Shown: positions 2,884 through 24,930, numbered from the stretch's first letter. The stretch is 64,000 nt of DNA from Fibrobacter sp. (GCA_017649565.1 JAGCGO010000019.1:1-64000); one strand, 5' to 3'. Numbers and translations are program-made. Notes: generated by a model not told the origin, from the letters alone.

Positions 2884-3849
2884 TTACTTCAGGACAATCT
2901 TGTTGCTGAAGTCAACAGACTTGCCAGAAACGCGGACCATGTAGACACCGGCGTCGACAGAGGAAAGGTCGAGCGAGGCGGCACCCTTCACGGAGCCCTT
3001 CTTGACAACGCGGCCCTGGAGGTTGATCACCTCGACGGTAGCGTCGGAAGAAATGCCAGAGAAGGAGAGCGTACGGCCGGAAACGAGGGCCTTCACACCA
3101 GCGGCAGCGCGGACACCCTTGATTGCACCGACGGCGTCATACGGAGGAGGAGGAACGGCGTGCGTGTTACAACCGCTTCCATAGGGACCGATTTCCATGA
3201 TGTTGAAATCACCATCGAGACCGTCCTTGGCCTGAATCTTGAACTTGACGGAGACCAGGATTGCAGCAGCTTCAGGACCGGTAATCTTGTCACCAGTACC
3301 CCAACCAGCCTGGGCGAAGTCAGCCCACGGAATGTCCTTGACAGTACCTTCGGAGCTCTTGACCAGCTTGGAAATCGGGTTGTCGTACTTAAGGGCCTGA
3401 TCCTTCTCGTCACCGAGACCCAATTCGAGCACGGGGGCCAGAGTGGACAAATAAGCGATACAGATTCCGCCCCAAGCAGTGGCGTCGCCAGGAACCGTAG
3501 TCTTATCGGTCTTGCTAACTTGACCGACAACGTTGAAGCCGATACCGATGAACGGGTCATAGCTCAGAGCAGCACCCGAAAGAACAACGTGTCCGCAAAC
3601 GCCACTGCAGTATTCGATAACCGGCTGCAGGGAGTTGTCGTCATAGCCGTTGCCCTTAGCGACAGGCCACTGAACAGAGGAAAGGCCATCGTCAGCGCTG
3701 TCGTTGTAGTCAAACCAGTAACCCTCGGTCTCAGATTCGTTGCCGAGTTCAGTTTTAACCTGTTCGGTAGTGCCGTTCCACAGCTCAAAACCGAATGCAG
3801 CCGAAGCGGCCATCGCAAACACTGTGCTGTATAGAATTTTCTTGTTCAT
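2884..3849 (-). CDS. Secreted carbohydrate-binding-like protein with C-terminal sorting domain
   Basis: A 321-residue protein with a signal peptide (residues 1-20, cleavage after AAFG/F). Residues about 22-225 form one domain with EYCSGVCG, ALSYDPFIGIGF, WGGICIAYLS, WADFAQAGWG and KFKIQAKDGLDGDFNI. The Trp/Gly pattern resembles galactose-binding-fold carbohydrate-binding modules (CBM11-like), but that is inference. A Pro-rich hinge (PPPP) leads to an 80-residue C-terminal beta-sandwich ending in DAGVYMVRVSG...IVLK, in the style of type IX secretion (type A) sorting domains. The protein encoded at 19452-20570 carries the same core domain on a lipoprotein scaffold. The ribosome site is AGAGAGAG upstream of the ATG, and a promoter is visible at 3905-3933. 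No catalytic motif is recognised, so it is probably a binding protein. Confidence 0.72.
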   Translation of the reverse strand: MNKKILYSTVFAMAASAAFGFELWNGTTEQVKTELGNESETEGYWFDYNDSADDGLSSVQWPVAKGNGYDDNSLQPVIEYCSGVCGHVVLSGAALSYDPFIGIGFNVVGQVSKTDKTTVPGDATAWGGICIAYLSTLAPVLELGLGDEKDQALKYDNPISKLVKSSEGTVKDIPWADFAQAGWGTGDKITGPEAAAILVSVKFKIQAKDGLDGDFNIMEIGPYGSGCNTHAVPPPPYDAVGAIKGVRAAAGVKALVSGRTLSFSGISSDATVEVINLQGRVVKKGSVKGAASLDLSSVDAGVYMVRVSGKSVDFSNKIVLK

Positions 3850-4253: not shown

Positions 4254-6506
4254 ATGAAAATGAAAAATGTCCTTCTATCCTTGGCGATGCTTGCGGCAGC
4301 CCCTGCCTTTGCAGGCGCGCTAGACTGCACACCCAAACGCGTCGGCCCAGTTTCCATATATGGGGCACTACACACCAGCGGCAACAAGATTATCGGCGCA
4401 AAGAACAACGAGCAGGCAATGCTTCGCGGCATGAGCCTGTTCTGGTCCGATGGTACCGGGCAGCCCTACTACAACAAGAACGTCATCGCCTGGGCCGCGG
4501 ACAACCTCAAAATCGACGTATTCCGCTTCGCCCTCGGCATCCAGTACTACGATAGCGACGGAGGCACCAAGAACGCCCTTGCCACGGAAAGTTCCTACAA
4601 GGGTTCCCCGGACGCATACCTGGGCCTGGTAGACCAAATGGTCGCCGCCGCCATCGAAAGCGACGTCTATATCATTATCGACTGGCACAGCCACCGAGCC
4701 CACACGGAAACTTCGCTTGCGAAGACATTCTTCGAGACGGTTTCCAAGAAATACAAGGACGTCCCGAACGTCATCTATGAAATCTATAACGAGCCGGTCG
4801 ACGGAAGCGGCGGCAACTGGAGCGCGGTCAAGAGCTATGCGAACACGATCTGCCCCATCATCCGCAACAGTACGCAGAACCTGATTATCGTGGGAACGCC
4901 TTCCTGGTCGCAAAATCCGCAGAACGGCGCCAACGACCCCGTGAACTCCACGAACATAGCCTATGTGCTGCACTTTTACGCGGGCACCCACTCCAAGGGC
5001 AGCTTCAGCGGCAGAATTGACCAGACTCTAAACGCAGGCTATCCGGTGTTCATCAGCGAATGGGGCACGACAAACGCCGACGGCGATGGCGAGCCGAACT
5101 CAAGCGCCACATCCGAATGGACAAGCTACATGGACCAGAAGATGATCCCCAACTGCAACTGGAGTCTGCGCCAGCTAACCAGCGCCATAGACAAGAAGAG
5201 CGAGAAATCCGCCATGTTCGCGGGCAATGTCGTATTGAACAATTTCAGTTCCCTGTCCGAGGCGGAATACACGGCCTCCGGAAAAATTGTGAAAGAATAC
5301 CTCACGAAGAACGGACGTAACTGGGCTGACTCGCTTGTCAAGGGCAAAAACTCGGGCAATTGCGCGTTCAAGAGCGTCAGCGTCAAGCAGACCGAGAGTC
5401 AAATTACCAACGCCCTGAAATCCGGCTGTACCTACACGTCCAGCAACGATGCCGTCGTGTCCGTCTCCGGTTCGACGCTCGACGTTCACGATTACGGCTA
5501 CGCCATCATCAAGGGCGACGACGGTTCCGAATCCGTCGTATCCGTCACGCAGGTTGCCGGGCAGTCCATTCCCTCATTCTCCGACGCCTCATGCGACTAT
5601 GCCGGCAACTGCAAGAACGCGAAGGGTTCCAGCCAATCTCTGGACTATGACGACGACGGCAAGAATGAATACCTGCTGACCGTAGCAAACACGACTATCG
5701 AAGGAGCGACGTTCACGCTGAAATCCTTGAACCCGGAAATCGTGAATGTCAAGAACGCAACCTGCAAGATTGCCTCCTGTTCGGGTTCCATGCACAACAA
5801 CAAGGTGTGGATGTTCGAACTGAACAGCTTCGGCGAAGCGAAAATAGTCGCGACTGCACCTGCCGTATCCGGCTACCGTGCGATGCAGGACACCATCACC
5901 TTCAAGTACACCAAGGCCAACAACAGAATAACCTCCAAATTCAGTGACTTGACACTCTCCCCGGGCGAAACGAGCAAGGAAGGAATCCTCCCCGACACGA
6001 CGCTGATGGGAACCAAAATCACCTATACGTTTGACGGCGAGCCCACCTGCAAGTACTTATCCCGCAGCGGAACCAGCGTGGTCGCAGGAGACCAGAACGC
6101 GGTCATCACGATTACGGCAAACGTAGAGGAATCCGAGTTCTACAAGCCGATTGTTGCGTCCATGACCGTCACCATCGGAGACGCAACAACAGCCGTCAAC
6201 CTGGCCGAACACCTGGCCTACCTAAACCAGGGCAACGAAGAGGACGACGCCATTCACTATTCCATGGTGACAAGCCATGGTCTGAAAGCCCAGATAACCG
6301 GCTCCACGCTCTCGTTCAGCACCGAAAGGGCAGGAATGGTCAAGCTGGATGTTTACGACGCCATCGGTAACCGCGTTATGAGACAGTCCGGCCGCTACGG
6401 CACCGGGACACACTCCGTCCAGCTGAGCAACCTTTCCAGCGGCTCCTACGTCGCCATCGTGCGTCAGGGAAGCCAGTCGGCAAGCGTCCGCTGGAACAAG
6501 CAGTAA
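4254..6506 (+). CDS. Glycoside hydrolase family 5 endoglucanase, secreted
   Basis: A 750-residue protein with a signal peptide cleaved near AFA/GA (residue 20). The GH5 barrel spans about residues 35-330: HxHRAH-type strand (IIDWHSHRAH), acid/base Glu180 in YEIYNEP, HFYAGTH, and nucleophile Glu269 in FISEWGT. This pattern fits subfamily GH5_2-like cellulases that cut internal beta-1,4-glucosidic bonds. A long middle section (about 375-650) contains Ig-like beta modules with paired Cys. The last 80 residues form a sorting-type beta-sandwich ending GSYVAIVRQG...RWNKQ, suggesting type IX-like export to the surface. AGGA lies 9 nt before the ATG. A terminator shared with the convergent operon follows. 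Confidence 0.9.
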   Translation: MKMKNVLLSLAMLAAAPAFAGALDCTPKRVGPVSIYGALHTSGNKIIGAKNNEQAMLRGMSLFWSDGTGQPYYNKNVIAWAADNLKIDVFRFALGIQYYDSDGGTKNALATESSYKGSPDAYLGLVDQMVAAAIESDVYIIIDWHSHRAHTETSLAKTFFETVSKKYKDVPNVIYEIYNEPVDGSGGNWSAVKSYANTICPIIRNSTQNLIIVGTPSWSQNPQNGANDPVNSTNIAYVLHFYAGTHSKGSFSGRIDQTLNAGYPVFISEWGTTNADGDGEPNSSATSEWTSYMDQKMIPNCNWSLRQLTSAIDKKSEKSAMFAGNVVLNNFSSLSEAEYTASGKIVKEYLTKNGRNWADSLVKGKNSGNCAFKSVSVKQTESQITNALKSGCTYTSSNDAVVSVSGSTLDVHDYGYAIIKGDDGSESVVSVTQVAGQSIPSFSDASCDYAGNCKNAKGSSQSLDYDDDGKNEYLLTVANTTIEGATFTLKSLNPEIVNVKNATCKIASCSGSMHNNKVWMFELNSFGEAKIVATAPAVSGYRAMQDTITFKYTKANNRITSKFSDLTLSPGETSKEGILPDTTLMGTKITYTFDGEPTCKYLSRSGTSVVAGDQNAVITITANVEESEFYKPIVASMTVTIGDATTAVNLAEHLAYLNQGNEEDDAIHYSMVTSHGLKAQITGSTLSFSTERAGMVKLDVYDAIGNRVMRQSGRYGTGTHSVQLSNLSSGSYVAIVRQGSQSASVRWNKQ

Positions 6507-6588: not shown

Positions 6589-6601
6589 TTGAAATCTCAA
6601 C

Positions 6602-6636
6602 AAAAAATCCGTTCCCCGAACAGGAACGGATTTTTT
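6602..6636. terminator. Bidirectional terminator between convergent GH5 gene and surface operon
   Basis: A 14-bp perfect inverted repeat (6602-6615 with 6623-6636), A-run on the left and T-run on the right, with a 7-nt loop. It serves the GH5 gene on the plus strand and the six-gene operon on the minus strand. Confidence 0.92.
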
Positions 6637-6662
6637 GTTAATTGCGTTTGTTACCGGAAGGA

Positions 6663-7721
6663 TTACTTTTTCTTCTTGGGCTTGTAATCCATGTTCGGGC
6701 GGAGCTGCAGGCCGATGGTCACGAGGAGCGAAACGATCGGTTCGTGATGGTCCTGATCAAGCTCGTACACGGCAACGCCGCTGAAGCCTTCGCTCTTGAC
6801 ATCCTCGGCGACAGCCTTCACGGAAGGAATACCCATGAACACGATAGCTTCGGAATTGCTGACGGCCAGTTCGGACTTGGATTCCTCATCGAAGGTGACC
6901 TTGTAGTCGGGTTCGTCGAACTTGCCCATCAACTCGTTATAGCCGAGGTAGCCTTCGTTACCGCTACCGAATCCCTGGTGGGAAGAACCGTAACCCGTCG
7001 CACCCACGAAGGACTTGCCGTACAGGTAAATCACGGGGAGCAGCTTGTCCTTGTCGATACCCATGTCGCTCACCATGGAAAGCATCTCGTGAATCTTGGT
7101 GGCGCCCTGGTTCGGGACGAGCTCGGAAGTTTCTTCCGTCATCTGGTCCGGCATGAACACGTCAATGTAGGAGAGCTTGTTCATCGTCTCGGCGGAGTAG
7201 GCTTCCTGGGCCATGTACGGATACATGGATGAAGCCACGATCATGCCCGGCATATCACTTACCAGCGCATCGACCAGCTTCTTGTAGTCCTCGGCATCTT
7301 CGGCAGTGATGTTCTGCCAGTCAAGTTCGATACCGTCACCGCCGTTAGCGGAAAGCCAGCTCTTGATGTTGGAGACGAATGTCGGGAGAAGTTCCTCGGA
7401 AGACGCGATAGCCTTGAGGTTTCCCTCGGCCTCGTTACCACCCACGGAAACAACGAGCTTCACGCCGTTTTCCTTGGTGAACTTGACTAGGTCCTTGAAG
7501 TTCGGGGCATCGTTTTCGTCAACGAAGTTGAGCGAAGCATCCTCGCCGGGCATCAGGGACACGTAGTGAACATGCGTCACGGTATTGTAGCGGATGTCCT
7601 TCGGGTAGAACTGGGAATACTGGCTCCAATAAGGGAAGTACCCAACAATCTTGTCCGCGGCAGCCTGTGCCGACACGGCACAACCAAAGGCCAAAGCTAG
7701 AGCAACTATTTTCAGATTCAT
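6663..7721 (-). CDS. GH18-fold protein with degenerate catalytic motif (probable chitinase-like lectin)
   Basis: A 352-residue exported protein (signal peptide to about residue 21). It shows the GH18 barrel signatures GYFPYWSQY (strand 1), KLVVSVGG (strand 3) and DGIELDWQ at residues 129-136 (strand 4). In active GH18 enzymes the last motif is DGxDxDxE, where the final Glu is the proton donor. Here it is Gln136 and the middle Asp is Glu132, so chitinase-type hydrolysis is unlikely and glycan binding is the better guess. The tail ends in a Lys-rich stretch. It is the last gene of a six-gene operon, 13 nt after the preceding stop, with ribosome site GAGG and an ATG at 7721. The terminator at 6602-6636 ends the unit. 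Confidence 0.8.
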   Translation of the reverse strand: MNLKIVALALAFGCAVSAQAAADKIVGYFPYWSQYSQFYPKDIRYNTVTHVHYVSLMPGEDASLNFVDENDAPNFKDLVKFTKENGVKLVVSVGGNEAEGNLKAIASSEELLPTFVSNIKSWLSANGGDGIELDWQNITAEDAEDYKKLVDALVSDMPGMIVASSMYPYMAQEAYSAETMNKLSYIDVFMPDQMTEETSELVPNQGATKIHEMLSMVSDMGIDKDKLLPVIYLYGKSFVGATGYGSSHQGFGSGNEGYLGYNELMGKFDEPDYKVTFDEESKSELAVSNSEAIVFMGIPSVKAVAEDVKSEGFSGVAVYELDQDHHEPIVSLLVTIGLQLRPNMDYKPKKKK

Positions 7722-7734
7722 ATAAATACCTCGC

Positions 7735-8643
7735 CTACTTTATTTCACGGGCAGTGCCGTTGTCATCGCAGTACAGTGATGTTGCAGGATATACGACCGG
7801 CTTAAGGATCGGGTCGACGGCCGGGTTCCCCAGTTCTTCCGCTTTGCAGCGGCGATAGGCCCAACCATGGCCCTTGCCGAAAGCAACGAACTGGAGAGCG
7901 GCAGCTTCCGTATCCGGAGTCAGTTTATTCAGCACGTCCAAGTCGTTTGTCGCCCCGTAGATATTGTACGGGTAAGTGTACGAAGTCACAGTAGCGTCAA
8001 GACCAGGCGGAATCGTGTCCACCTTGGCGACTTGATTAATCCCATCAGGGACACTCTTGATTCCCTTGCTGCTGACCGAGAGCGTGACCTCGTCTATCTC
8101 TATCGTCACCGATTCGGTCGCAGACGTGTCAAGCTTTCCATAAACCACAGTAATCAAATTTCCGGTAGAATCCTGTTCGAGGCTGTCGACATAGACGACC
8201 TGGGAACCCTTGACCGTACCAGCAGAATCCAGCGTATCCACTACAACCTGCGAAATCCTGAACACTGTATCGTCCTTGACCGTAGTTTCCAGCTTTTCGA
8301 TCCAGAGACTGTCCCACGTTGTCTCGGCAAATCCCAAATAGCTCGGGCTGGTGAAGAACGTATGCAGCGAAGCCGTATCGGCAAAGAAGGCAATAGAGTC
8401 TTCCTTGACCTTGGTCGCATAAGTTTCGGCATCCATGGACGCTTTGAACTTAGCGTTTTCATCCTTCACGTAGTTAATCCTCTGCATGGTCAACAGCACC
8501 GGATGGAGTTCCAAGTAGACAGCGGCATCGAAATCATCCGGATAGTTTTCAGCCACAGCTTCGGCGTCGTTGACTTCCATAGAAGAACAAGCCGTAAGGG
8601 CAGCCGTTGCAATAATCATCAAGCCTTGGTATAATTTTTTCAT
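7735..8643 (-). CDS. Lipoprotein of the surface operon, function unknown
   Basis: A 302-residue protein with a lipoprotein signal peptide (LTAC, Cys about residue 19). The mature part has a helical N-terminal segment (to about 120) and a Thr/Val/Asp-rich beta segment, with Cys residues near the C-terminus (YRRCKAEELG and SLYCDDNG). No known domain is recognised. The start at 8643 is chosen over an in-frame TTG at 8649 because AAGGAG lies 8 nt upstream of the ATG. The AAGGAG overlaps the stop of the preceding barrel gene, indicating co-translation. It may be an accessory lipoprotein of the neighbouring outer-membrane barrels. Confidence 0.7.
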   Translation of the reverse strand: MKKLYQGLMIIATAALTACSSMEVNDAEAVAENYPDDFDAAVYLELHPVLLTMQRINYVKDENAKFKASMDAETYATKVKEDSIAFFADTASLHTFFTSPSYLGFAETTWDSLWIEKLETTVKDDTVFRISQVVVDTLDSAGTVKGSQVVYVDSLEQDSTGNLITVVYGKLDTSATESVTIEIDEVTLSVSSKGIKSVPDGINQVAKVDTIPPGLDATVTSYTYPYNIYGATNDLDVLNKLTPDTEAAALQFVAFGKGHGWAYRRCKAEELGNPAVDPILKPVVYPATSLYCDDNGTAREIK

Positions 8644-8655
8644 TTTCAAGACTCC

Positions 8656-10821
8656 TTAGAAATTAACCGTTACGTCGGCGGAAGCGACAATTTTGCCCAC
8701 GGAAAGCGTAGACTCAACCATAGCGCCGGTCGCATCCATAGATTTATAGGTAACATCGTTCTTCAGGTAGCCGCCCTGCAGGTCCAGATAAGAAGCCGGA
8801 GCGAGTTTCAGGCGGAAACCTTCGAGGGTAAGCAATTCCTTGCTCTTGGTTATAGTGGCAAGGCCGTCAGCAATGACGAAACCCGTTTTCCCGAATTCCT
8901 TGTTGAACATCTGCACGCTGCTCAAGAGCGAGATCGGGCCCCAGACTTCCAGGGTGGCACCACCCATGATGCGGTCTGCCTTGCGCTTGAGATTTGCACT
9001 TTCCTCGGAATGGTCGTAAGAACCCTGGAGCAGGAGCTTGCGGTCCAAAGCGAGCAGCTGACCGATATCGAAACCAAGGCCGGCAGCATAACGCGTGTAC
9101 TTGTTTTCTTCGGTACCGACTTGGGGTACGCCAGCAGCATCGTAGGAAATCTTGATGCTGTTCGTCTGGGTCAACATGTCGAAACGGGCATTGAACGTAA
9201 GGATATCGTTCCAGTTCACGTCGACAGCAGCCTTGACACCCTTGCGGTCAGGCGTCGCATCGCCATAGGGCATCGCGAGACTAATCGTAGGATCGAGAGC
9301 GAACATTTCCGACTGGATCTCGCTGCGCTTCAAGATTGCAGCCGAGTAGCCGTTACGATAGAAATGGCCGTCCTTGTAGTTGTTGTAAAGGCGAGAATAG
9401 AGGTACTCGCTTTCGTCCTTCTTGGAAAGGGCGTTGGTGGACTGCGAAGTGATCAAGTTGGTCGCGTTCAGCGTCACGGCATTGTAGACATTGAAATAGA
9501 GGTTTTCCAGGCTGGAGGAACCGAAGTTTTCAATGATCAGGTTGTCGGAAATGCTCGAATACAGCGCATTCGAGTTCAGCACAACCGCACCGCCACGATA
9601 AGACGGGGTCGCGGCCATCTCGGACCAGAACTTTTCATCCGTCTGCAAGTAACGGACCTTCACATCGTACTCGACATTGGCAGCGGTACCGCGGACGAAG
9701 GGTTCCACGTAGAAGCTCTTGCCCTTGTCGTCGGCAAACTTTTCAGACTCGATGAAGGACGAATCCTGTTCCACCGCCTTGTAGTAGACGAAAGAGTCAG
9801 CAGGAGCCCTGGGATTCTGGCCCACCGCCAAGACGTAGTTCTTCACCTTCGTCTTTTTCTCGTAGTCGCGATCCATGTTCCAGTTCGACATGGCGAATTC
9901 GCCATTGAACCCGAATTCCAGCGGCAGGGTCGGCATCAGCGACTTGCTTGCGAAACCGAGTTCGGCATCAATGACAAGGTTGTTTTCGTAATAGATTGTG
10001 TCGCCAGGATCGGCAAAGTGAGCACGGCGAGTCAACTTACGATCGGAGACATTGTAGATGTCGCCGCCGACATGGATACCCATAAGGTCCACTCCCAGAC
10101 GGGAAGCGAGGAGGTATCTGTCGGAGAAGTCGAAGTCGAAGAACACCTGGTCGCTCTTCTTGGCGATATTGCGCAAGCGAGCCCCGGTAATCTGCATGGC
10201 GACATTGTCCACGGCACCAATCCGGCCGCTGTTGTATTCAGCGTTCAGACCGTGCAGCAGGCGCCTGTCCGTCGTATCGAGATTGCGGCGGGCCAGAGCC
10301 TCGACCCTGTGGGAGGCGAGGATTTCCGGTTCCTGCAGGAAATCGGGCTGCGGGGTGGCGATGGTGAGCGGGGTGTACCCGACACGCATGTAACCGAGAT
10401 TGAAGTTCAGGTGCTTGTTGAGAATGAGGCCGTCATACGAGAACCAGTGACCGATAACCGGGTTGTTGTTCACGTCGTAGGCACTCTGCCAGTCCTTGTG
10501 CAGGCGCATGCGGACATCGACGTGCGTCTCGGCACTCGGGTTTGCCCCGAAGCGCAAGTCGACATCGGTGAACGCCTGGTTTTCCTGCGTCGCGGAATTG
10601 TCAGCAAAATTGTCGGATTTCGCGATGGACGTCAGGCCACCGGCTTTCGCCGTACCGTTAACCCTCAAACCGAGAACGGCATCGTTCAAGGAATCCAGAG
10701 TTTCAAGCATGGACTTCTGCTGGGAGACAATGGAATCCTGCTCCTCTGCCATAGCGAGACCCGCCGAGAACAAGAAGGAGGATGCCAGCGCGATTGTTTT
10801 GATTTTCATATTGAAGTTCAT
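8656..10821 (-). CDS. Outer-membrane beta-barrel protein (third barrel gene of operon)
   Basis: A 721-residue protein with a signal peptide (cleaved near AMA/EEQ, residue 25), a short helical stretch and then alternating amphipathic strands to the C-terminus, which ends VTVNF. A terminal Phe preceded by alternating hydrophobics is the usual signal for BAM-dependent insertion. The segment around GYMRVGYTPLTIATPQPDF aligns by eye with DFRQQYSPLTLFLPGIDI of the next barrel upstream, so the two are paralogues. The family is not recognised. The ribosome site GGGAGG is 8 nt upstream of the ATG, with 15 nt to the upstream stop. A porin-, adhesin- or glycan-uptake-type role is conceivable. Confidence 0.78.
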   Translation of the reverse strand: MNFNMKIKTIALASSFLFSAGLAMAEEQDSIVSQQKSMLETLDSLNDAVLGLRVNGTAKAGGLTSIAKSDNFADNSATQENQAFTDVDLRFGANPSAETHVDVRMRLHKDWQSAYDVNNNPVIGHWFSYDGLILNKHLNFNLGYMRVGYTPLTIATPQPDFLQEPEILASHRVEALARRNLDTTDRRLLHGLNAEYNSGRIGAVDNVAMQITGARLRNIAKKSDQVFFDFDFSDRYLLASRLGVDLMGIHVGGDIYNVSDRKLTRRAHFADPGDTIYYENNLVIDAELGFASKSLMPTLPLEFGFNGEFAMSNWNMDRDYEKKTKVKNYVLAVGQNPRAPADSFVYYKAVEQDSSFIESEKFADDKGKSFYVEPFVRGTAANVEYDVKVRYLQTDEKFWSEMAATPSYRGGAVVLNSNALYSSISDNLIIENFGSSSLENLYFNVYNAVTLNATNLITSQSTNALSKKDESEYLYSRLYNNYKDGHFYRNGYSAAILKRSEIQSEMFALDPTISLAMPYGDATPDRKGVKAAVDVNWNDILTFNARFDMLTQTNSIKISYDAAGVPQVGTEENKYTRYAAGLGFDIGQLLALDRKLLLQGSYDHSEESANLKRKADRIMGGATLEVWGPISLLSSVQMFNKEFGKTGFVIADGLATITKSKELLTLEGFRLKLAPASYLDLQGGYLKNDVTYKSMDATGAMVESTLSVGKIVASADVTVNF

Positions 10822-10836
10822 CTTAGTTACCTCCCA

Positions 10837-13092
10837 TTAAAATTCCACATTAATGGAAGCTTCAAAAAGCGTCTGAGTAAATTCATGCGTAAACTTCGAG
10901 GAGGCCGCATTTGCTTCGGCATAGTAATATGCCGGCAAGTTCATAGACTGATCCTTGGATTCCGTGTAGGTATTGTAAGTGTTACCATTCTTCACTTCCG
11001 AGGTGTAGGTTCCCGGAGCACCGCCCATAGTCAAGCTATAATCGTTCTTGACCATAATCTGGCCCACATTGACCGAGAGCCAGGCATGTTCTTCCATGGC
11101 GTAGTCCAGACCGACCATCCACTGTTTCTGCGAACCCTTCAGGATCGGGTTCTTTTTCTTTTTGACATTGGGGTAAGTCAGGGTTGCATCCAGGGCGGCC
11201 TGGTTGTCGTTGATTTCCGACTGGATCATCTGGAAACCGGCAGTGAAGCCCAAGCGCGGCAGGTACTGCAGGTAGAGTCCGGCATTGATGAAGTTGCTCT
11301 TGAATTCTGCCGTACCGCTGCCCAGGGCAGGATCGTAATCGAGGGAACGCTGAGAATGCTTGTAGGACCCAGAAATTTCAAGCGGACGCTGGAAACCAAC
11401 CGTCTTGAAGATATCCCACTTGGCACCACCACCATATTCCATATACTTGGCGGCCTTGAAACCATCCAAAGCCTTGACCTGGTTGAAGGTACTGAACATA
11501 CCTTGAAGCTCGGCCAGTTCCTTCCAGTTTGCAGTCAGGACCGCGCGGGCACCCATACGGTTCGACGTAGCAAGACCATTCGGGAGAGAAAGCTGAATGT
11601 TCGGATCTGCGAACTTCTCGAGCAATGCCAGCTGGGCATGCGTATAGACGTTCGTCGTCCAGGAGTTCTTGTTGTACGGAGCGATGTTGTAGCTTTCCGT
11701 CTGACCACCCTGAGTCTTCTTGTCATCCGTACCCAAGGTCGTCGCCACAGGAGCGAATTTCGGGGAGTAGTTGTAGAGAGCGTCGAATGTGCTGTACAGC
11801 GGAGCGTTCACGCCGAAGCGGACTTGGTTGTAGTCCACGTCGGAATTCATGATTCGCTGGGCAAAGAAGTTGGAGGACTGAGCCAGGTTGTTGTACCAGC
11901 CGCTGTCGTTACGGACGAAGTCCACGGTAGTAACCACACCAAAGCTGTTTTCGACCTTGTAGCCGATATTCGCCGTTACGAGGACGCCCAAGCCCTTCTC
12001 GGTTTCTTCCTTGGTCTTGATGGCACCGGTAGCAGCATCAACGCTGCCAATCTTGTCCACCTTATCCAAGGACAGGGCACCTTCACCCACAAGGTCGGCC
12101 ACCAGGGTCTTGGACCCGAGAAGACCGGCAATGTCTCCACCGAGGCGACCGCTCGCGATGAACGTCCTTTGTGCAGACGTGTCATACGGGTTGACATCGC
12201 CACGTTCGTAGGGCTGGTCAAGCAGATACCCGTTGTCCTCATCGTAGGGATGCCTGTAGGCATTGTGTGCGTAAGTGTTCTTGTTATCGAAGATGTACAT
12301 CGGCGTGGCGCCGACATAGAGGTTGCGATTCAACGGAAGGAGTTCGAAGTTTCCTGCGGCCAACCACTTGTCCATGTTGGACGCCTGGGTTGAACCGGCA
12401 AACATGCCGTTCGGCATGATGTTACCCTCGGCACCGCTGAAGTCCAGGACGGATGTGCGGTTCACGCGGGCAAACAAGGCTTCGGCACGAACTTCGCCGA
12501 TTGTCTCGCTCAGGTTTGTACGGAACTGGAGGTTAACACCCTGCAGGTTACGCTGATTGCCTTCGATCTGCTGTTCCTTCTGCGCCATGTAGCGCTTGCG
12601 GGCGAACACCGTCGGTTCGTACATGATGTCGATGCCCGGCAAGAAGAGAGTCAGCGGAGAATACTGCTGGCGGAAGTCACCCACAATCCAGTAGAACGAC
12701 TGTCCGACATTGCCTTCGACATTAATCCAGGCAACCGTCAGCGTCTTTGCCGCAGAGGCGAAGTATTCCTGCATGCCGCCACCGAGGCGAAGCATCACGT
12801 TGGCGCGAACCTCTTCGTAGGGGCGGAAACGGAAATCGATATCGGCAGTGACGAACTCGTTGCGTTCCTCGGTCGGCTGCTTGATCGAGCGAGCCGGCAG
12901 ATCCTGGTCCGTATCGAACGAAGAACGTTGGGCGACAGCCCTGATGGCACCGCCTATTTCAAAACCACGCTTGGCATTAATGGAATCGGCCTTGCTTTCC
13001 AGCAGATCCTTATTCGCATTGACCGGGTTAGCCAGGACAGCCACCGAAGCGGCAAGAAGAGTGAACAAAGTTCTTTTCATTTTCATATTCAT
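10837..13092 (-). CDS. Outer-membrane beta-barrel protein (second barrel gene of operon)
   Basis: A 751-residue protein. The signal peptide ends near VNA (about residue 26), and the C-terminus is EASINVEF, a beta-signal with terminal Phe. Many Tyr/Asn-rich strands and turns and an absence of Cys are consistent with a large barrel. It shares the SPLT...P..D...EP..FARKR block with the 8656-10821 protein. The ATG at 13092 is preferred to an in-frame GTG at 13101, because GGAGG lies 9 nt upstream of this ATG. It is 15 nt from the upstream stop. No named family is recognised. Confidence 0.78.
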   Translation of the reverse strand: MNMKMKRTLFTLLAASVAVLANPVNANKDLLESKADSINAKRGFEIGGAIRAVAQRSSFDTDQDLPARSIKQPTEERNEFVTADIDFRFRPYEEVRANVMLRLGGGMQEYFASAAKTLTVAWINVEGNVGQSFYWIVGDFRQQYSPLTLFLPGIDIMYEPTVFARKRYMAQKEQQIEGNQRNLQGVNLQFRTNLSETIGEVRAEALFARVNRTSVLDFSGAEGNIMPNGMFAGSTQASNMDKWLAAGNFELLPLNRNLYVGATPMYIFDNKNTYAHNAYRHPYDEDNGYLLDQPYERGDVNPYDTSAQRTFIASGRLGGDIAGLLGSKTLVADLVGEGALSLDKVDKIGSVDAATGAIKTKEETEKGLGVLVTANIGYKVENSFGVVTTVDFVRNDSGWYNNLAQSSNFFAQRIMNSDVDYNQVRFGVNAPLYSTFDALYNYSPKFAPVATTLGTDDKKTQGGQTESYNIAPYNKNSWTTNVYTHAQLALLEKFADPNIQLSLPNGLATSNRMGARAVLTANWKELAELQGMFSTFNQVKALDGFKAAKYMEYGGGAKWDIFKTVGFQRPLEISGSYKHSQRSLDYDPALGSGTAEFKSNFINAGLYLQYLPRLGFTAGFQMIQSEINDNQAALDATLTYPNVKKKKNPILKGSQKQWMVGLDYAMEEHAWLSVNVGQIMVKNDYSLTMGGAPGTYTSEVKNGNTYNTYTESKDQSMNLPAYYYAEANAASSKFTHEFTQTLFEASINVEF

Positions 13093-13107
13093 CTTTAGCA
13101 CCCTCCG

Positions 13108-15357
13108 TTAGAACCACGCCTTGGTTTCGGCGGAAATGTAATGGGAATGCCAGTCGTTTACAGAAACCGTCTCGTCGGTATGGGTCATATACTTGTAACG
13201 GACATGCAGACCGACGCGGTCGGCGAAGTCCCAGTCGAAGCCAAGACCCATGGCAGTCTCCATAAAGTTGATGGGAGCCTTCCTGTACAGGAACGTATTC
13301 ACCTGCGACTTGTAATCGGAAGTCTGCCCCACAGTCGAGGTCATCTCTTCTGCTATGTAGGCCTTGTCGGAACGGAAGGTTTCGAGACCGAGGATACCCA
13401 CCATGTGGAACTTGGTGGTGATAGCGATGGTCGGTTCGAACTGTCCGTAGAAGGAAACAAGCAACATGTCCTTCTGCTTTTCGCTGACTGCAATCGGAGC
13501 AATCGTGCTCGACACACCGGAAAGAGCAACCAAGGCAGTCATCATGATATTGCGGTCGGTACCAAACCAGTGACCGATATCGTAACCACCCATGAAGGAG
13601 AAGTAGGATTCCCACTTGGCGTGCATGGGCACTTCCTGGTCGGCAATCTGGCCTGCATTGTCGTAGGCGGCGAAGGATTCCCAGAGTTCCCAGGTTCCAC
13701 CATAGAGACCGCCACGCTGGCGATACTGCTTGACACCGTCGGCAGAGCCCATCTCGATGCCGGCACGGTTTTTATAACCTGTACCGCTGTAGTTACCGGA
13801 GTCAGCAACGAAGAGCGGCTTGTGCTTGGTCCAGGAGTTCGAGCTTTCCCACATGTTGCGGCCGTTCAAGCGATAGTTGAACACGACGACGTCCTGGCCT
13901 TCCACGACCTGGCGATGCAGACCGTATTGCAGGTCGAAGTAGCCGCGGTTGAAGGTCGGTTCCAACTTGAGGTTAACACCTGTCAAGTTGGCAGAATAGC
14001 GGAGAGAACCGCCGTTCAGATAGGCTTCGTCCTTGCGCCAGCCCGGGAAGCGGGAGGGGTTCGTAATAGCATACGGAGAATAGAAGTTCTGGGAGAAATA
14101 GGCAGCTTCGACAGTGAGCGGCCAGCCCTCGATGTACTTGCTCTGGGCCTTCACGTACACACCCACCTCAGGTTTGCTCCACTTGTCCTTGACAGCGTCA
14201 CTCGAGAAACCGGAGCTCGGGTCCTTGTCGCTGAAGCCCTTCGTTTCCGTAGAACGGTAGAAGACCGAGGAGTCCACCATGTTCAAGGCTGCATCGGCCA
14301 TCAAGAACAGTTTCGGAGTGAGGTTGCCCTTAACGTCAAAAGAACCGACATGGTTGTTGAGGAGCACCGGGGCGCCGAATTCGGAGGCAAGCCACTGCCT
14401 GCTGAATTCCGGTTCGTAAACCGTACCGTCGTCATAGATGACACCCAAGTAGTTGAGGCCGAACGTAAGGTTGTCGGCGATCTTTTCCTTGGCGACACGG
14501 CCGTGATAGACATTACCGCGCAAGTCATAGGTACCGATCATTTCAAGTTCGCCCGGCTGACCGCCATACATACGCAGACCGTCGCGGGTCGCCATGTCGG
14601 CATCCATCGGCTGGGACACAAGGAACTGGGCCTTCATGTTAGCGGGCAACTGGTAGACGTTACCGAAGACACCACCGAACGAGCGGTTGGTCCAGAACGC
14701 GCGGCCACCTTCCTTAACAGGCTTGAAGGACTTTTCCTTATAGTAGGTACTGACAGTCTTTTCGTCTTCGTAAAGTTCGTACTGCCAGGAGAAGCGGGCC
14801 ATGGTTTCGCGTTCCCACATGGTAAGCGGGGAGGCGTTTGCCCAGATAACACCGCCAGCCGTGACGTAGGCACCAAAGACGCCGGCACGGATATCCACGC
14901 CCACGTTGAATTCTTCGTTCAGCGTGGAGGAATAGTAGTCCGTCGAGTGGTCATATATCACGCGCTCGTCGTTCGACGGAGCGTTCGTCGGATTCTTCGC
15001 CAGGTTGTTCGTGTACGTACCGGTCATGTCGAACGGGAACGACAGGTTCGTGAACAACGTGATGTAGGAGTTCGGCATGGCGACCACGTTCACGTTGAGC
15101 GTAGCATCCACTGCCGTCCTAGCACGGTCATCCTTGACCCAGGGGCTCGGTTCGGTGTACTGGAAATTCTTCAGGCGGAAAGCCATGTAGCCGGAAACGG
15201 CCAGCGGCAAATCGTCCTTGCCGAGCAAAGTAGACTCCATGTTGTTGGACATGGTGTCCAACGACGCGTGAAGGGAGTCAAGTTGCAACTGCGGAGGAAG
15301 CGCCCACGCCGCGCCGAGGCAAGAAGCGAGTAAAACACTAGATACTGATTTGCGCAT
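13108..15357 (-). CDS. Outer-membrane beta-barrel protein (first barrel gene of operon)
   Basis: A 749-residue protein with a signal peptide (to about AWA, residue 19) and a predicted barrel ending ISAETKAWF, again a terminal Phe. It contains NASPLTMWERETMARF, the counterpart of the SPLT block of the two downstream paralogues, but is more divergent from them. The start codon is preceded by AAGAGG, which overlaps the end of the preceding gene's region (gap 9 nt). Three successive barrels of nearly equal size suggest duplication and specialisation within one operon. Confidence 0.76.
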   Translation of the reverse strand: MRKSVSSVLLASCLGAAWALPPQLQLDSLHASLDTMSNNMESTLLGKDDLPLAVSGYMAFRLKNFQYTEPSPWVKDDRARTAVDATLNVNVVAMPNSYITLFTNLSFPFDMTGTYTNNLAKNPTNAPSNDERVIYDHSTDYYSSTLNEEFNVGVDIRAGVFGAYVTAGGVIWANASPLTMWERETMARFSWQYELYEDEKTVSTYYKEKSFKPVKEGGRAFWTNRSFGGVFGNVYQLPANMKAQFLVSQPMDADMATRDGLRMYGGQPGELEMIGTYDLRGNVYHGRVAKEKIADNLTFGLNYLGVIYDDGTVYEPEFSRQWLASEFGAPVLLNNHVGSFDVKGNLTPKLFLMADAALNMVDSSVFYRSTETKGFSDKDPSSGFSSDAVKDKWSKPEVGVYVKAQSKYIEGWPLTVEAAYFSQNFYSPYAITNPSRFPGWRKDEAYLNGGSLRYSANLTGVNLKLEPTFNRGYFDLQYGLHRQVVEGQDVVVFNYRLNGRNMWESSNSWTKHKPLFVADSGNYSGTGYKNRAGIEMGSADGVKQYRQRGGLYGGTWELWESFAAYDNAGQIADQEVPMHAKWESYFSFMGGYDIGHWFGTDRNIMMTALVALSGVSSTIAPIAVSEKQKDMLLVSFYGQFEPTIAITTKFHMVGILGLETFRSDKAYIAEEMTSTVGQTSDYKSQVNTFLYRKAPINFMETAMGLGFDWDFADRVGLHVRYKYMTHTDETVSVNDWHSHYISAETKAWF

Positions 15358-15366
15358 AAAATCCTC

Positions 15367-16110
15367 TTAAATCTCGTTGCGGAACGGATAGTAGGCCGGG
15401 CCTTCGTACGGCTTGCCATGCTTCTTGATTACGATATCGTCTATCCAGACCTTGAAGGATTCGTTTTCATCCTTACGGACTTCAAGACGGAAACCCTTGA
15501 ACTTGTCCCAAGCGAACGGGAGCATCACTTCGCGCGTATTCTTGGCATCCCAGTAGACACCGGTATTGCCGAACAGTTTCAGCGGGATGCTGAAGTGCTT
15601 CCACTCCGTGGTAATTTCGCCGAGGCTCTTTGAACGGAGCTTGACCTGCAGGGACTCGCCGCCACTCTTCACGCCATCGTCGACAAGCACGAACAGGGCG
15701 TTTTCGCCGCCCTTGGCACCCTTGATCCAGAATTCCAGGACGCCTTCTTCGAGATACGGAGTCAAGTCGACGGAACCGGCAATACAAATAGCAACGCCGG
15801 AATAGTCGCTAGCGATAAGTTCGATTTCCATGGAAAGAGCGCCTTCCATGGCATACTTGTCCGTGAGAACCGGTTCGGGGTTTTCGCGGGGATACTGGTA
15901 AGTGTATCCACCACCGCGCGGAATAGCTTCACGCATAACCACCGTGACAACTTCCTTATCGGGACGGAAGGGCTTCGCGGGTTTCGTCACGAAGCGGGAC
16001 TGGTCACGGTCACGATAATCGCTGAACCCGTAACCTGCAAAAGAAGAAGAGGCTAGGACCAGTGCAGCCAAGGCACCCGTCCAGACGGCTTTTTTCAAAT
16101 TTCCATTCAT
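15367..16110 (-). CDS. Exported carbohydrate-binding-like protein, first gene of surface operon
   Basis: A 247-residue protein with a signal peptide cleaved near SFA/GYG. The mature part is one beta-sandwich: VDLTPYLEEGVLEFWIKG, WKHFSIPLKLF and KGFRLEVRKD...FKVWIDDIVIKK follow the pattern of galactose-binding-fold CBMs (family 11-like), in which Trp/Phe and Asp line the ligand groove. The assignment is inferred from pattern. The start at 16110 is chosen because it begins the signal peptide; GGAG lies 12 nt upstream. A longer in-frame reading has no export signal. It heads the six-gene operon, with the next start 9 nt after its stop, and a candidate -10 lies at 16144-16149. Confidence 0.66.
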   Translation of the reverse strand: MNGNLKKAVWTGALAALVLASSSFAGYGFSDYRDRDQSRFVTKPAKPFRPDKEVVTVVMREAIPRGGGYTYQYPRENPEPVLTDKYAMEGALSMEIELIASDYSGVAICIAGSVDLTPYLEEGVLEFWIKGAKGGENALFVLVDDGVKSGGESLQVKLRSKSLGEITTEWKHFSIPLKLFGNTGVYWDAKNTREVMLPFAWDKFKGFRLEVRKDENESFKVWIDDIVIKKHGKPYEGPAYYPFRNEI

Positions 16111-16271: not shown

Positions 16272-16300
16272 TTGACGAATTTGCTCCGTATGCATTTTAA
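16272..16300 (+). promoter_or_regulatory. Candidate promoter of the second GH5 gene
   Basis: TTGACG (16272-16277), a 17-nt spacer, then TTTTAA (16295-16300). The leader to the ATG at 16341 would be about 35 nt. Confidence 0.45.
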
Positions 16301-16340
16301 TTTAAGTATTTTTACAAAGGGACCTAACGGAGGATTTTCC

Positions 16341-17510
16341 ATGAAAAAAAGTTTACTTTTCCTTTTTGCGATTTCAGCTATTGTCGGCCTGTCGACGAGT
16401 CTCGTCGCATGCGACAACAGCAGTGCGCCTCCCGCAGCTCCCTCGTCCGACCCGTCCGAAGAAAATCAGGGCAGGAAGGTCGTTCCCGTGGACTATTCGG
16501 CTGGCCGCGCCATGAACGCACGCCTGGGCAAAGGCATTAACCTGGGCAACTCCTGGGATTCCGACGGCAAGAACTGCAAGGACGACAATTGCTGGAGCAA
16601 CCCCATCGAAGACGGGGATTTCAAGATCATCAAGGATGCAGGATTCAACTCCATCCGACTTCCCGTGCGCTGGCAAAGATACTCCAACTACGAGACACAC
16701 ACCGTCGATCCGGATATTCTCGCCGGCGTCAAGGAAGACGTCACGCTCGCCATCGAGCAGGGTCTTGTCGTGCTACTCGATTTCCACCACTATGTAGAGC
16801 TGAACACGCTCGGCGGCGGCGCACATCGCGGCACCGGCGATTCCGTGGCCCTTTTCCAGGCAGAAAAAGAACATTTTGTCGGCCTGTGGACTCAAATCGC
16901 CACGGAATTTGACAAGTTCCCCGACTCCATGATCGTTTTCGACATTCTCAACGAGCCGACAATCCCTGACACGGCGCTAGTCAACGACGTTCTCCTCAGC
17001 GCCTACAGCGCCATCCGAGCCGTAACAAAGAACAAGACCATCATGTTCGAATCCAACAATGCGGCAAAATTCGAGCGGCTGGGCGTCCTCAACCTCCCCC
17101 CGGACGGCAACATCATCTATAGCGGGCACTACTACGAGCCTTACACTTTCAGCCACCAAGGGCACAGTTCCGCTTGTCAGGGCGACGCCGCATATAGCAA
17201 CACGGCTAGCGACGACTTTAAATCTTTCGCCAGGATGGGCATGCAGCTCTACCCGGACATTAACGGCAAAGATTTCATTCCCATGAACATGGGCGAATTC
17301 GGAATCTCTGGGCGCACCAACTGGCAATGCGGGGAAAATGCCCCCAGCGATGCGAAGAAGGCCCAATGGGCCAAGGAATCCGTGGCGGCAGCAAGGCAAT
17401 TCAACATGTCGTTCCACTACTGGGGATTTACCTTTGTCGGCGGATTCGAAGCATACGACCGCCGAAGCGGCTCATGGTACGCGGGATTCCCGGGAGCACT
17501 GATCAACTAG
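16341..17510 (+). CDS. Glycoside hydrolase family 5 lipoprotein (cellulase)
   Basis: A 389-residue lipoprotein: the signal peptide ends SLVAC with Cys24, followed by a short Ser/Pro linker. The GH5 domain begins at about residue 55: GKGINLGNSWD, IRLPVRW, LLDFHHY, acid/base Glu205 in FDILNEP and nucleophile Glu319 in NMGEFG, with HYYEPYTF between them. The pattern is like GH5_4-type endo-beta-glucanases. Activity on cellulose, mixed-linkage glucan or xyloglucan is expected but not resolved. It has no C-terminal sorting domain, so anchoring is by lipid, unlike the GH5 enzyme at 4254. The ATG at 16341 is preceded by GGAGG; an upstream in-frame ATG at 16272 lies in the promoter. It converges on lpxA with only 16 bases between. 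Confidence 0.9.
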   Translation: MKKSLLFLFAISAIVGLSTSLVACDNSSAPPAAPSSDPSEENQGRKVVPVDYSAGRAMNARLGKGINLGNSWDSDGKNCKDDNCWSNPIEDGDFKIIKDAGFNSIRLPVRWQRYSNYETHTVDPDILAGVKEDVTLAIEQGLVVLLDFHHYVELNTLGGGAHRGTGDSVALFQAEKEHFVGLWTQIATEFDKFPDSMIVFDILNEPTIPDTALVNDVLLSAYSAIRAVTKNKTIMFESNNAAKFERLGVLNLPPDGNIIYSGHYYEPYTFSHQGHSSACQGDAAYSNTASDDFKSFARMGMQLYPDINGKDFIPMNMGEFGISGRTNWQCGENAPSDAKKAQWAKESVAAARQFNMSFHYWGFTFVGGFEAYDRRSGSWYAGFPGALIN

Positions 17511-22683: not shown

Positions 22684-24930
22684 TTAGTGAATGAGGATAA
22701 ACTTGCCCTTCTTGTTTTTCCCAGAAGAACTCTTGACTACGTACCAGTAAACTCCGGGTGCCGCCACATTGCCCCGCTTCGAAACGCCGTCCCAATCCAC
22801 GGAACCGCCCTTCGTCTCATTTTCGTTGAAGGAACGTATCAGATGGCCCGCGCGATTGTATATGGAGACAACGGCATTCGCACCGACATTGTCAATGGTG
22901 ATATGGGAATGTTCTCCCAGACGGAACGGGTTCGGGTAGGCAATGAGGTCATGCTTGGTAGAATCCTTTTTCGACACCGAGACATCGCGCAGGTCCCCGC
23001 GCTTATACATGGTCAGGCCCCTAGCGTGCGAGAACCAAGCCTCGCCACGAGCCGCATCGATTGCAATGTCGAGCACTTCGTCGGAGAGCAGTCCTGTCTT
23101 GGCAGTAAAATGCTTTGCGGTCAGTGTGTCCTGCGTGACACCCTTGCGGGTCAGGCGGTACACCCCCTGGCTCGTCGTGCCGACCCAGAGATTTCCCAGG
23201 ACGTCAAACTCAAGGGACGTGTACTCGGAGCCGATAACACCTTTCATGACATGTGGAGGCCTGATGGTATCCTTGTCCGTATTCCCCGCATCCCAGTATC
23301 CAATCTGGTCCTTCGTCACTAGCCACAGATAGTCGCCCTTCTCGTCGTAGGCCATGTCGACAGGGGAATCCTTGAACGCCGAAGGAATGGTCTTGTGGCT
23401 GAGAACATCGATACGCCCGCCGCGCTTTGCCGGATCCGCGATAAGGAAGACTTCAACTTCGCCTTCCGCCTCAAAGGATGCCGCCTGGCGGCCGGCCACC
23501 ATCACGATCCAACCGGAATCGGTTGCCACTGCGGAAATCGGGCCCGTAAAATCGTTGGTACCGGCGTGATTGTAACAGCTGAATTCGCCATCCTTCGTCA
23601 CGTAAATCAGGTCAAAGCCACCCGTCGTCGACGCCGTCGTCAAGAACCCGGACGAATCCGGGGCAACAGTCGTTCCCGCCGTAACCACGAAATTCTTGTT
23701 TTCCGGCCTATTATCTATTTCATTATAGCAGCGGTTCTTATCCGTAGCGGTACTCTTGATGAGTTCGTGACCGAACTTGGAGTATAGGTAGAAACCACTG
23801 CCCCACAAGTGGTAAAAGACGATATCGGGAGGAAGGAAGGCAAGCACCTTCATCCTGTTGGACAGGGCGCTCACGTCGTTTGCGTGCCCTTCATCGGCAA
23901 AGGCCCTATACTGCCAGACATTGTCCACCGTATGGGAAATTCGTCCTTCAAGCGATGCAGCGATGACTCCACCCCCTGCCTTCGGACGCACCTCGTAACT
24001 TCCGTCCAGGGTAAAATTGCTGATTTCCGAATAGTCGATGAACGACTTCTTCTTGGTATCATACCCGACGACAAAATATTCGCCGACCAGGAACGCGTAG
24101 GTATTGCTCAGACCAACCCAGTAAACGCGACTTACGCCTTTGTCATCGTAAAGGATGTTGTCCGACAGCGGAGTCCCCTCCACCATGATTTCCGTGGAAT
24201 CCCTTCCCGACGAAGTCAGCCTGCCTTTCTTGTCCCATTCCCACTGGCCCTTGACAGGGTATGTCTTCAAGGAATCGCCCTTCCAGGCAATAGTGCGGAT
24301 TTCTTCGCCTTTCCGTTCGACGCTCCAGGTTTCGGGATCGACAAGATTAATTTCTTTTTCCATGTGCTCCCAGTCAATGTAACGCTTGTACAAGGTTTTC
24401 TCGACAGAGACATAGAGCGTATCGTTGTGGACACTCAGCGCCTGCACCGGAGTCGCAAGCAGGGAATTCTTGCCAACCTTATTGATTGTCAAGACAGAAC
24501 GTTTCGCAAGGACATCGAAAAAGGCAAGACGGTCCTCGAACGCGAGAACAAGGAACTTCTTGTAGCCGACAGCCATATCCTGGATAAGGCGGACCCCATT
24601 CGAGACGAAGGAGCGGTTGATGACATTCCAGTTAGCGGTCTCAATATCCCATCCAGCAATCAGGCCGTACTCGGAAACGGCAAAAATGCCCTCTTTGCAC
24701 AGGGTCAGCGCATAGAACGACGACGTTTCCAATCCGGTCACCGTAGAAAAGAGAACATCGAGATCTGGAGTGAGGTACCGGATACCCGAAGCGGTCGCCA
24801 GCAGAACGCCGTCACCATAGGTGATATAGGAACGCACCGGATAGGGACGCCCAAAATTCCGCCACAGGTCTTCCGCAAACGAAGACACGGACAATGCCAG
24901 GAGCAGGATAATAGATGCTATAGTCTTCAC
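22684..24930 (-). CDS. PorZ-like beta-propeller protein with FlgD-like C-terminal domain
   Basis: A 748-residue exported protein (signal peptide to about FAE, residue 19). Most of the chain consists of blade-like repeats with G..LA, LW.GT..GVYRL and AWFSHARGLTMY, typical of two-component-regulator propellers. From about 660, YPNPFRLGEH starts a FlgD-Ig/type IX sorting-style domain ending KGKFILIH. This architecture matches PorZ of the type IX secretion apparatus, a surface protein that helps attach cargo. Orthology is inferred from layout only. The start is a GTG (24930) with a TAATTT box 6 nt upstream, suggesting a leaderless mRNA. It is the first gene of a PorZ-like/cca/FISUMP run. Confidence 0.7.
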   Translation of the reverse strand: MKTIASIILLLALSVSSFAEDLWRNFGRPYPVRSYITYGDGVLLATASGIRYLTPDLDVLFSTVTGLETSSFYALTLCKEGIFAVSEYGLIAGWDIETANWNVINRSFVSNGVRLIQDMAVGYKKFLVLAFEDRLAFFDVLAKRSVLTINKVGKNSLLATPVQALSVHNDTLYVSVEKTLYKRYIDWEHMEKEINLVDPETWSVERKGEEIRTIAWKGDSLKTYPVKGQWEWDKKGRLTSSGRDSTEIMVEGTPLSDNILYDDKGVSRVYWVGLSNTYAFLVGEYFVVGYDTKKKSFIDYSEISNFTLDGSYEVRPKAGGGVIAASLEGRISHTVDNVWQYRAFADEGHANDVSALSNRMKVLAFLPPDIVFYHLWGSGFYLYSKFGHELIKSTATDKNRCYNEIDNRPENKNFVVTAGTTVAPDSSGFLTTASTTGGFDLIYVTKDGEFSCYNHAGTNDFTGPISAVATDSGWIVMVAGRQAASFEAEGEVEVFLIADPAKRGGRIDVLSHKTIPSAFKDSPVDMAYDEKGDYLWLVTKDQIGYWDAGNTDKDTIRPPHVMKGVIGSEYTSLEFDVLGNLWVGTTSQGVYRLTRKGVTQDTLTAKHFTAKTGLLSDEVLDIAIDAARGEAWFSHARGLTMYKRGDLRDVSVSKKDSTKHDLIAYPNPFRLGEHSHITIDNVGANAVVSIYNRAGHLIRSFNENETKGGSVDWDGVSKRGNVAAPGVYWYVVKSSSGKNKKGKFILIH

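Follow-up and report, generated by a model that had tools for sequence, protein, structure and literature searches.

A six-gene operon for exported proteins in the genome of a cellulose-degrading gut Fibrobacter is probably (we put this at about 60%) the version, in Fibrobacteraceae, of an outer-membrane module for glycan capture and uptake that extends over the phylum Fibrobacterota, an analogue of PULs that is built on β-barrels without a plug. The evidence comprises the operon and its conservation, the predicted folds of the barrels, the loss of a catalytic residue from the GH18 protein, and the location of related barrel genes beside importers, phosphorylases, and cellulases or chitinases. 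The sequence-only reading of this DNA had suggested a glycan-capture, adhesion or envelope complex; a conserved surface operon with glycan-binding genes supports that suggestion, and the genomic context shifts it towards glycan import beyond adhesion.

The operon and its glycan-binding products

The operon runs from position 16110 to position 6663 on the minus strand of the window, by which we mean the whole stretch of 64,000 nucleotides that was analysed (Fibrobacter sp., GCA_017649565.1, JAGCGO010000019.1:1-64000). Six open reading frames, each with its own stop codon, encode six exported products in the following 5' to 3' order: a CBM30 protein with a signal peptide (15367..16110; 247 residues); three outer-membrane β-barrels, B1 (13108..15357; 749 residues), B2 (10837..13092; 751 residues) and B3 (8656..10821; 721 residues); a lipoprotein with the lipobox LTAC-SS (7735..8643; 302 residues); and a GH18 pseudo-enzyme with a basic KKKK tail (6663..7721; 352 residues). 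The genes are separated by gaps of 9, 15, 15, 12 and 13 nt, and a purine-rich stretch resembling a ribosome site lies upstream of every start codon; all six genes, their gaps and these stretches were found where the sequence-only reading had placed an exported six-gene operon. All 32 Fibrobacteraceae neighbourhoods that were fetched show the order CBM30-B1-B2-B3 (one contig stops inside B2), and GH18 comes next in all 24 neighbourhoods that reach that far. The operon is thus not a chance arrangement, and the gene order, on whose conservation in related genomes the earlier proposal had been made to depend, holds throughout this family. Long open reading frames of 1127 and 730 residues on the plus strand over the barrel genes were rejected as antisense open frames rather than genes.

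Directly after the last gene, between the operon and a convergent GH5 cellulase gene, lies a terminator-like hairpin (6599..6639) with a 17-pair stem and a T run. The convergent gene (4254..6506, plus strand; Pfam Cellulase, E 2e-53) encodes a Por-type C-terminal domain, whose Por_Secre_tail match (E 2.7e-5) is slightly below the cut-off. On the other side, outside the operon, a divergent GH5 cellulase gene (16272..17510, plus strand; Pfam Cellulase, E 9.4e-38) occupies a position that is kept in most Fibrobacteraceae. With a GH8 glycosidase at 1274-2851, the surroundings are rich in cellulases (GH5, GH5, GH8). C-terminal domains resembling type IX secretion signals (Por_Secre_tail or CHU_C) are present in the products of 2884-3849, 4254-6506 and 22684-24930, one of the three matches being slightly below its cut-off.

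The first product, described earlier as CBM-like, proved to be a bona fide CBM30 protein (Pfam CBM30, 64.5 bits against a cut-off of 27; E 1.5e-17); distantly related CBM30 structures are found in the PDB (1wmx, 2c24). At 68-99% identity across Fibrobacteraceae, its gene is the most conserved of the operon. The lipoprotein evolves fast: it has no family match in Pfam or NCBIfam, and its orthologs, seen in Fibrobacteraceae only, are 23-73% identical. The last product is a true member of the GH18 fold (Pfam GH18, 100 bits against a cut-off of 29.6; E 2.2e-28) that has lost the catalytic Glu, in agreement with its earlier description as a pseudo-enzyme: its motif reads DGIELDWQ, against DGxDxDWE in active enzymes, and the Glu of the DxxDxDxE motif is missing from all 18 aligned Fibrobacteraceae sequences. 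Because two homologs from another family, f4 (loci L032 and L033), keep the Glu in the motif DGIDxDWE, the operon protein is, as judged from these motifs, a pseudo-enzyme from a chitinase lineage. It resembles the chi-lectins, in which a GH18 fold has likewise had its catalytic Glu replaced (CHI3L1 is among its PDB matches), but it is bacterial, is encoded in a barrel operon, and has cellulose as its reported ligand.

That ligand is known from Fibrobacter succinogenes S85, whose annotation has exactly four genes between a CBM30-only protein (Fisuc_1525/FSU_2007) and a GH18 protein (Fisuc_1530/FSU_2012), the same number as in the operon of the window. Judged by gene content, by spacing and by the published annotation, the end genes of the operon are orthologs of Fisuc_1525 and Fisuc_1530. 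Whatever the substrate tested, Fisuc_1525 was found in the cell envelope (PMC4619616); it was also seen in the medium (PMC4668043). Fisuc_1530, named CBP-9 (PMC6851124), has the characterised activity "cellulose binding" (PMC3079729, Table 3) and is among the stably and highly expressed CAZy genes (PMC6204037). Fisuc_1531 was found in the S85 periplasm. In the literature searched, we found no paper that names the genes between Fisuc_1525 and Fisuc_1530.

These data bear also on a purely adhesive role, in which the barrels would merely anchor the CBM30 and GH18-like proteins for sticking to cellulose and would transport nothing. Two of the products, the CBM30 protein and the GH18 without its catalytic Glu, are binding modules; the latter has a cellulose-binding ortholog in S85, and adhesion is essential for growth of Fibrobacter on cellulose (PMC6204037). 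Three large barrels would nevertheless be a costly anchor, and the importers and phosphorylases that stand beside the barrels in most of the distant relatives misfit a pure adhesin, so we regard adhesion without transport as rather unlikely.

Three barrels without a plug

The lengths of the three barrels (721, 751 and 749 residues) and their final Phe were confirmed in the sequence. The SPLT block said to be common to all three is present in B1 and B2, but B3 reads TPLT. Their description as three paralogues needs a similar correction: B2 is clearly a paralogue of B3 (hhalign E 3e-101), but B1 is related to both only remotely (E ~1e-7). A search of the window's genome with a B2 profile gave two matches, which we took to be B2 and B3. 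AlphaFold models both B1 (pLDDT 74.8, pTM 0.78) and B2 (pLDDT 83.2, pTM 0.85) as barrels, the latter with about 22 long strands. If the N-terminus is periplasmic, the conserved SPLT segment would lie in the third extracellular loop of the predicted topology, where classical porins have their constriction loop. Many B1 proteins of Fibrobacteraceae (L069, L076, L077, L081, L089, L090) carry an extra N-terminal stretch of about 100 residues, rich in Glu, Pro and Ala and presumably periplasmic.

Neither single-sequence nor deep-profile searches found a relative of B1, B2 or B3 in Pfam, NCBIfam or the PDB, and the known sugar porins LamB, OprB and ChiP showed no sequence or profile relation to them in these databases. 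The models of B1 and B2 have no TonB plug, since nothing but a signal peptide and a single helix precedes the first strand, and the barrels have no Pfam match to a TonB-dependent receptor domain; an identity as TonB receptors was dropped for want of a plug. The barrels thus stay outside the named porin and TonB receptor families, as had been claimed, and sequence and profile searches returned no match to a characterised transporter family, which the sequence-only reading had named as evidence that would count against it.

Structural searches with Foldseek returned generic matches with low TM-scores and large rmsd (FimD, MtrB, AlgE, chitoporin, LamB and TonB receptors). Given such matches, we claim no family name from the fold, and the fold cannot separate a pore from an anchor. 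Two further candidates were examined among the 50 Foldseek matches listed. A part of the type IX secretion system was dropped, as PorV and SprA are absent from them. PopA, of a lipid-trapping porin-like superfamily with 16 strands and a tight plug (PMC12228718), is absent as well, and the B2 model has about 22 long strands.

The barrels might also be imagined as a channel for secretion of the neighbouring cellulases: ends resembling Por_Secre_tail occur in GH5 and other neighbours, and the usher FimD is the top Foldseek match of B2. That similarity, however, is generic to barrels (TM below 0.3 in the top rows), PorV and SprA are missing from the matches listed, and the conserved neighbours are ABC genes of the import type rather than secretion genes. 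We therefore consider export highly improbable.

Distribution and genomic context in Fibrobacterota

B1 and B2 form a pair that extends over the phylum. Among 168 Fibrobacterota genomes, B1 is present in 145 (31 of 41 genera) and B2, by profile search, in 146; a scan of contigs, which reaches close relatives only, returned Fibrobacter-related records alone. We designate Fibrobacteraceae as family f1 and other Fibrobacterota families by further numbers (f2, f4 and so on). Outside f1, B1 and B2 occur together in 37 genomes and are both missing from 18, with two discordant (37/1/1/18); B2 and a GH51-type protein occur together in 38 and are both missing from 16, with three discordant (38/0/3/16). 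We attach no p-values to these counts, because related genomes are not independent. The B2-negative genomes outside f1 mostly lack both B1 and the CBM30/GH51 protein. GH9 is found in all 146 B2-positive genomes, and B2 is missing from all nine GH9-negative genomes; GH94, whose presence is too noisy in incomplete genomes, was excluded as a correlate. Four small genomes of one genus (G160-G163; family f4, genus g15), three of them nearly complete, lack B1, B2, the CBM30/GH51 protein and GH9, and provide a natural loss comparison.

Outside Fibrobacteraceae, the gene after B1-B2 encodes, in nearly all families, a protein of about 1050 residues with the domain order CBM30-CBM30-CBM11-GH51, which is that of Cel51A (CelF, EG2) of F. 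succinogenes; the partner is a homolog of Cel51A, about 50% identical, and often has a lipobox. The partner in f6, f8 and f10, of about 640 residues, stops after CBM11 and is, by its domain content, a binding protein without an enzyme. By contrast, Fibrobacteraceae keep Cel51A as a separate gene elsewhere and have a single-CBM30 protein in the operon.

Of 38 informative loci outside f1, 28 have ABC-importer genes (in f8, at least the SBP) next to the barrels. The importer of f7, f8 and f11 is of the SBP5/Opp type (SBP5, two permeases and two ATPases), and that of f4 is of an unrelated type (SBP1, MalF/MalG and MalK); the two occupy the same place next to B1-B2 (MalFGK-like in L038-L041, Opp-like in L035, L042, L047 and L052). 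Further frequent neighbours are GH94, a GT35-type phosphorylase, GH9 and GH1. In L045, L046, L116-L120 and L141, the cassette is followed by a glycogen-type (GT35) phosphorylase in the place that GH94 takes in other relatives. In f8 (L122-L124, L142), an SBP5-family protein is encoded directly upstream of B1, and the CBM30 partner, where seen, lacks GH51. Fibrobacteraceae have the same SBP5 importer in a separate operon.

Could the barrels lie near glycan genes by coincidence, as porins of a general kind or as structural proteins of the outer membrane? Such proteins might well look as these do, with no Pfam or NCBIfam family and generic barrels as Foldseek matches. However, Fibrobacterota without B1 and B2 live, mostly without the CBM30/GH51 partner too, and the CBM30 partner remains adjacent while the enzymes and the type of importer vary. 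The near-perfect co-occurrence with this partner refutes coincidence in part, and leaves it little probability. The context argues instead for glycan import beyond adhesion, because the B1-B2 genes of relatives adjoin ABC importers, a cellobiose phosphorylase and cellulases.

A second version of the locus, of the form CBM30-B1-B2-B3-GH20-GH18, occurs in three f4 genomes (G158, G159, G156; L032-L034; one contig begins inside B1). Judged by its sequence, the GH18 that divergently adjoins this locus in both contigs reaching that far looks active. One of these genomes (G158) also carries a cellulose-type locus with an importer (L040). Since f4 has this second version with GH20 and GH18, the barrels appear to follow the glycan and not one enzyme. 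B3 is confined to the CBM30-first locus type, being represented in f1, in f2 and in the f4 loci with GH18 and GH20. In the trees of both B1 and B2, in which the root and long branches are uncertain, Fibrobacteraceae and f2 group with the GH20/GH18 version of f4 and are separated from the importer type (SH-aLRT 100). Because the trees join them, the Fibrobacter operon looks like a relative of the chitin-type locus in which GH18 has turned into a binding protein and GH20 is gone.

The same grouping with f4 (100 SH-aLRT), and the chitinase lineage of the last gene, could be taken to mean that the Fibrobacter operon still serves chitin, GlcNAc or peptidoglycan fragments and not cellulose. We think this improbable: the catalytic Glu of GH18 is lost, GH20 is gone and the leading gene is CBM30, and in addition the S85 ortholog of the GH18 protein binds cellulose and both neighbours of the operon are GH5 cellulases.

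A proposed route for glycans and its known counterparts

From this combination of genes we infer a pore function for the barrels, its direction and its substrate, and a physical complex of the products. In the capture-and-uptake module that we favour, the CBM30 protein and the GH18 pseudo-enzyme would hold single β-1,4-glucan chains at the cell surface, where the lipoprotein is likely to act as an anchor and perhaps helps to hold them. B1, B2 and B3 would be pores admitting cellodextrins or cellulose chain ends to the periplasm, where Cel51A-type and GH9 enzymes would shorten the chains; S85 has been reported to contain both Cel51A and GH9 in its periplasm (PMC4668043). An SBP-dependent ABC importer would carry the oligomers inward, and a phosphorylase would split them. 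A TonB-like energy source is not evident, so uphill uptake would need to be driven by the ABC importer. Some observations speak against import: in Fibrobacteraceae the importer and Cel51A lie outside the operon, the barrels of the GH18/GH20 version and of the f2, f5 and f12 loci are not accompanied by an importer, and CBM30 would suit pure adhesion as well. More tentatively, B1-B2(-B3) may be a TonB-independent gate for cellulose that has no relation to SusC and passes chain ends or cellodextrins from the CBM30 protein into the periplasm; it would have interchangeable versions for β-glucan and chitin and would go back to the ancestor of the phylum.

CBM30, GH18 and PUL-like loci are already known kinds, and the SusC/SusD PULs of Bacteroidota are alike in several respects: they combine co-directional genes for an outer-membrane barrel, a surface glycan-binding lipoprotein, and surface and periplasmic glycosidases, and they come in substrate-specific versions with differing enzymes. 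As in a PUL, glycosidase genes (GH51, GH9, GH94, GH1, or GH18 with GH20) stand beside B1-B2. The Fibrobacterota loci differ in that their barrels, two or three in number, have neither a plug nor a TonB/SusC domain, and in that the ABC importer is in the locus. Pfam and the survey of loci revealed no SusD-like helical surface lipoprotein, the partners being CBM30/CBM11 proteins or an unknown lipoprotein. The module would therefore work like a PUL but, having no SusC plug and no SusD, is not a member of that class. LamB, the chitoporin ChiP, ScrY and AlgE are also outer-membrane glycan barrels without a plug, and LamB, chitoporin and AlgE are among the Foldseek matches of B2; unlike these barrels of 16-18 strands, B1-B2 have about 22 or more, show no sequence relation to them, and occur nearly always as a pair with a CBM30 protein. 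We found no description of the barrels, or of their phylum-wide pairing with CBM30 and importers, in the databases and literature searched.

If the proposal is true, B1-B2(-B3) supply the channel that is lacking in the model of Fibrobacter in which "cellulose chains enter the periplasm", and the barrels would be candidates for the cellodextrin gate of this genus. Specific, phylum-conserved barrels are thereby named as targets for deletion, purification and tests, and a common anatomy is offered for glycan use in Fibrobacterota that is distinct from the Bacteroidota paradigm.
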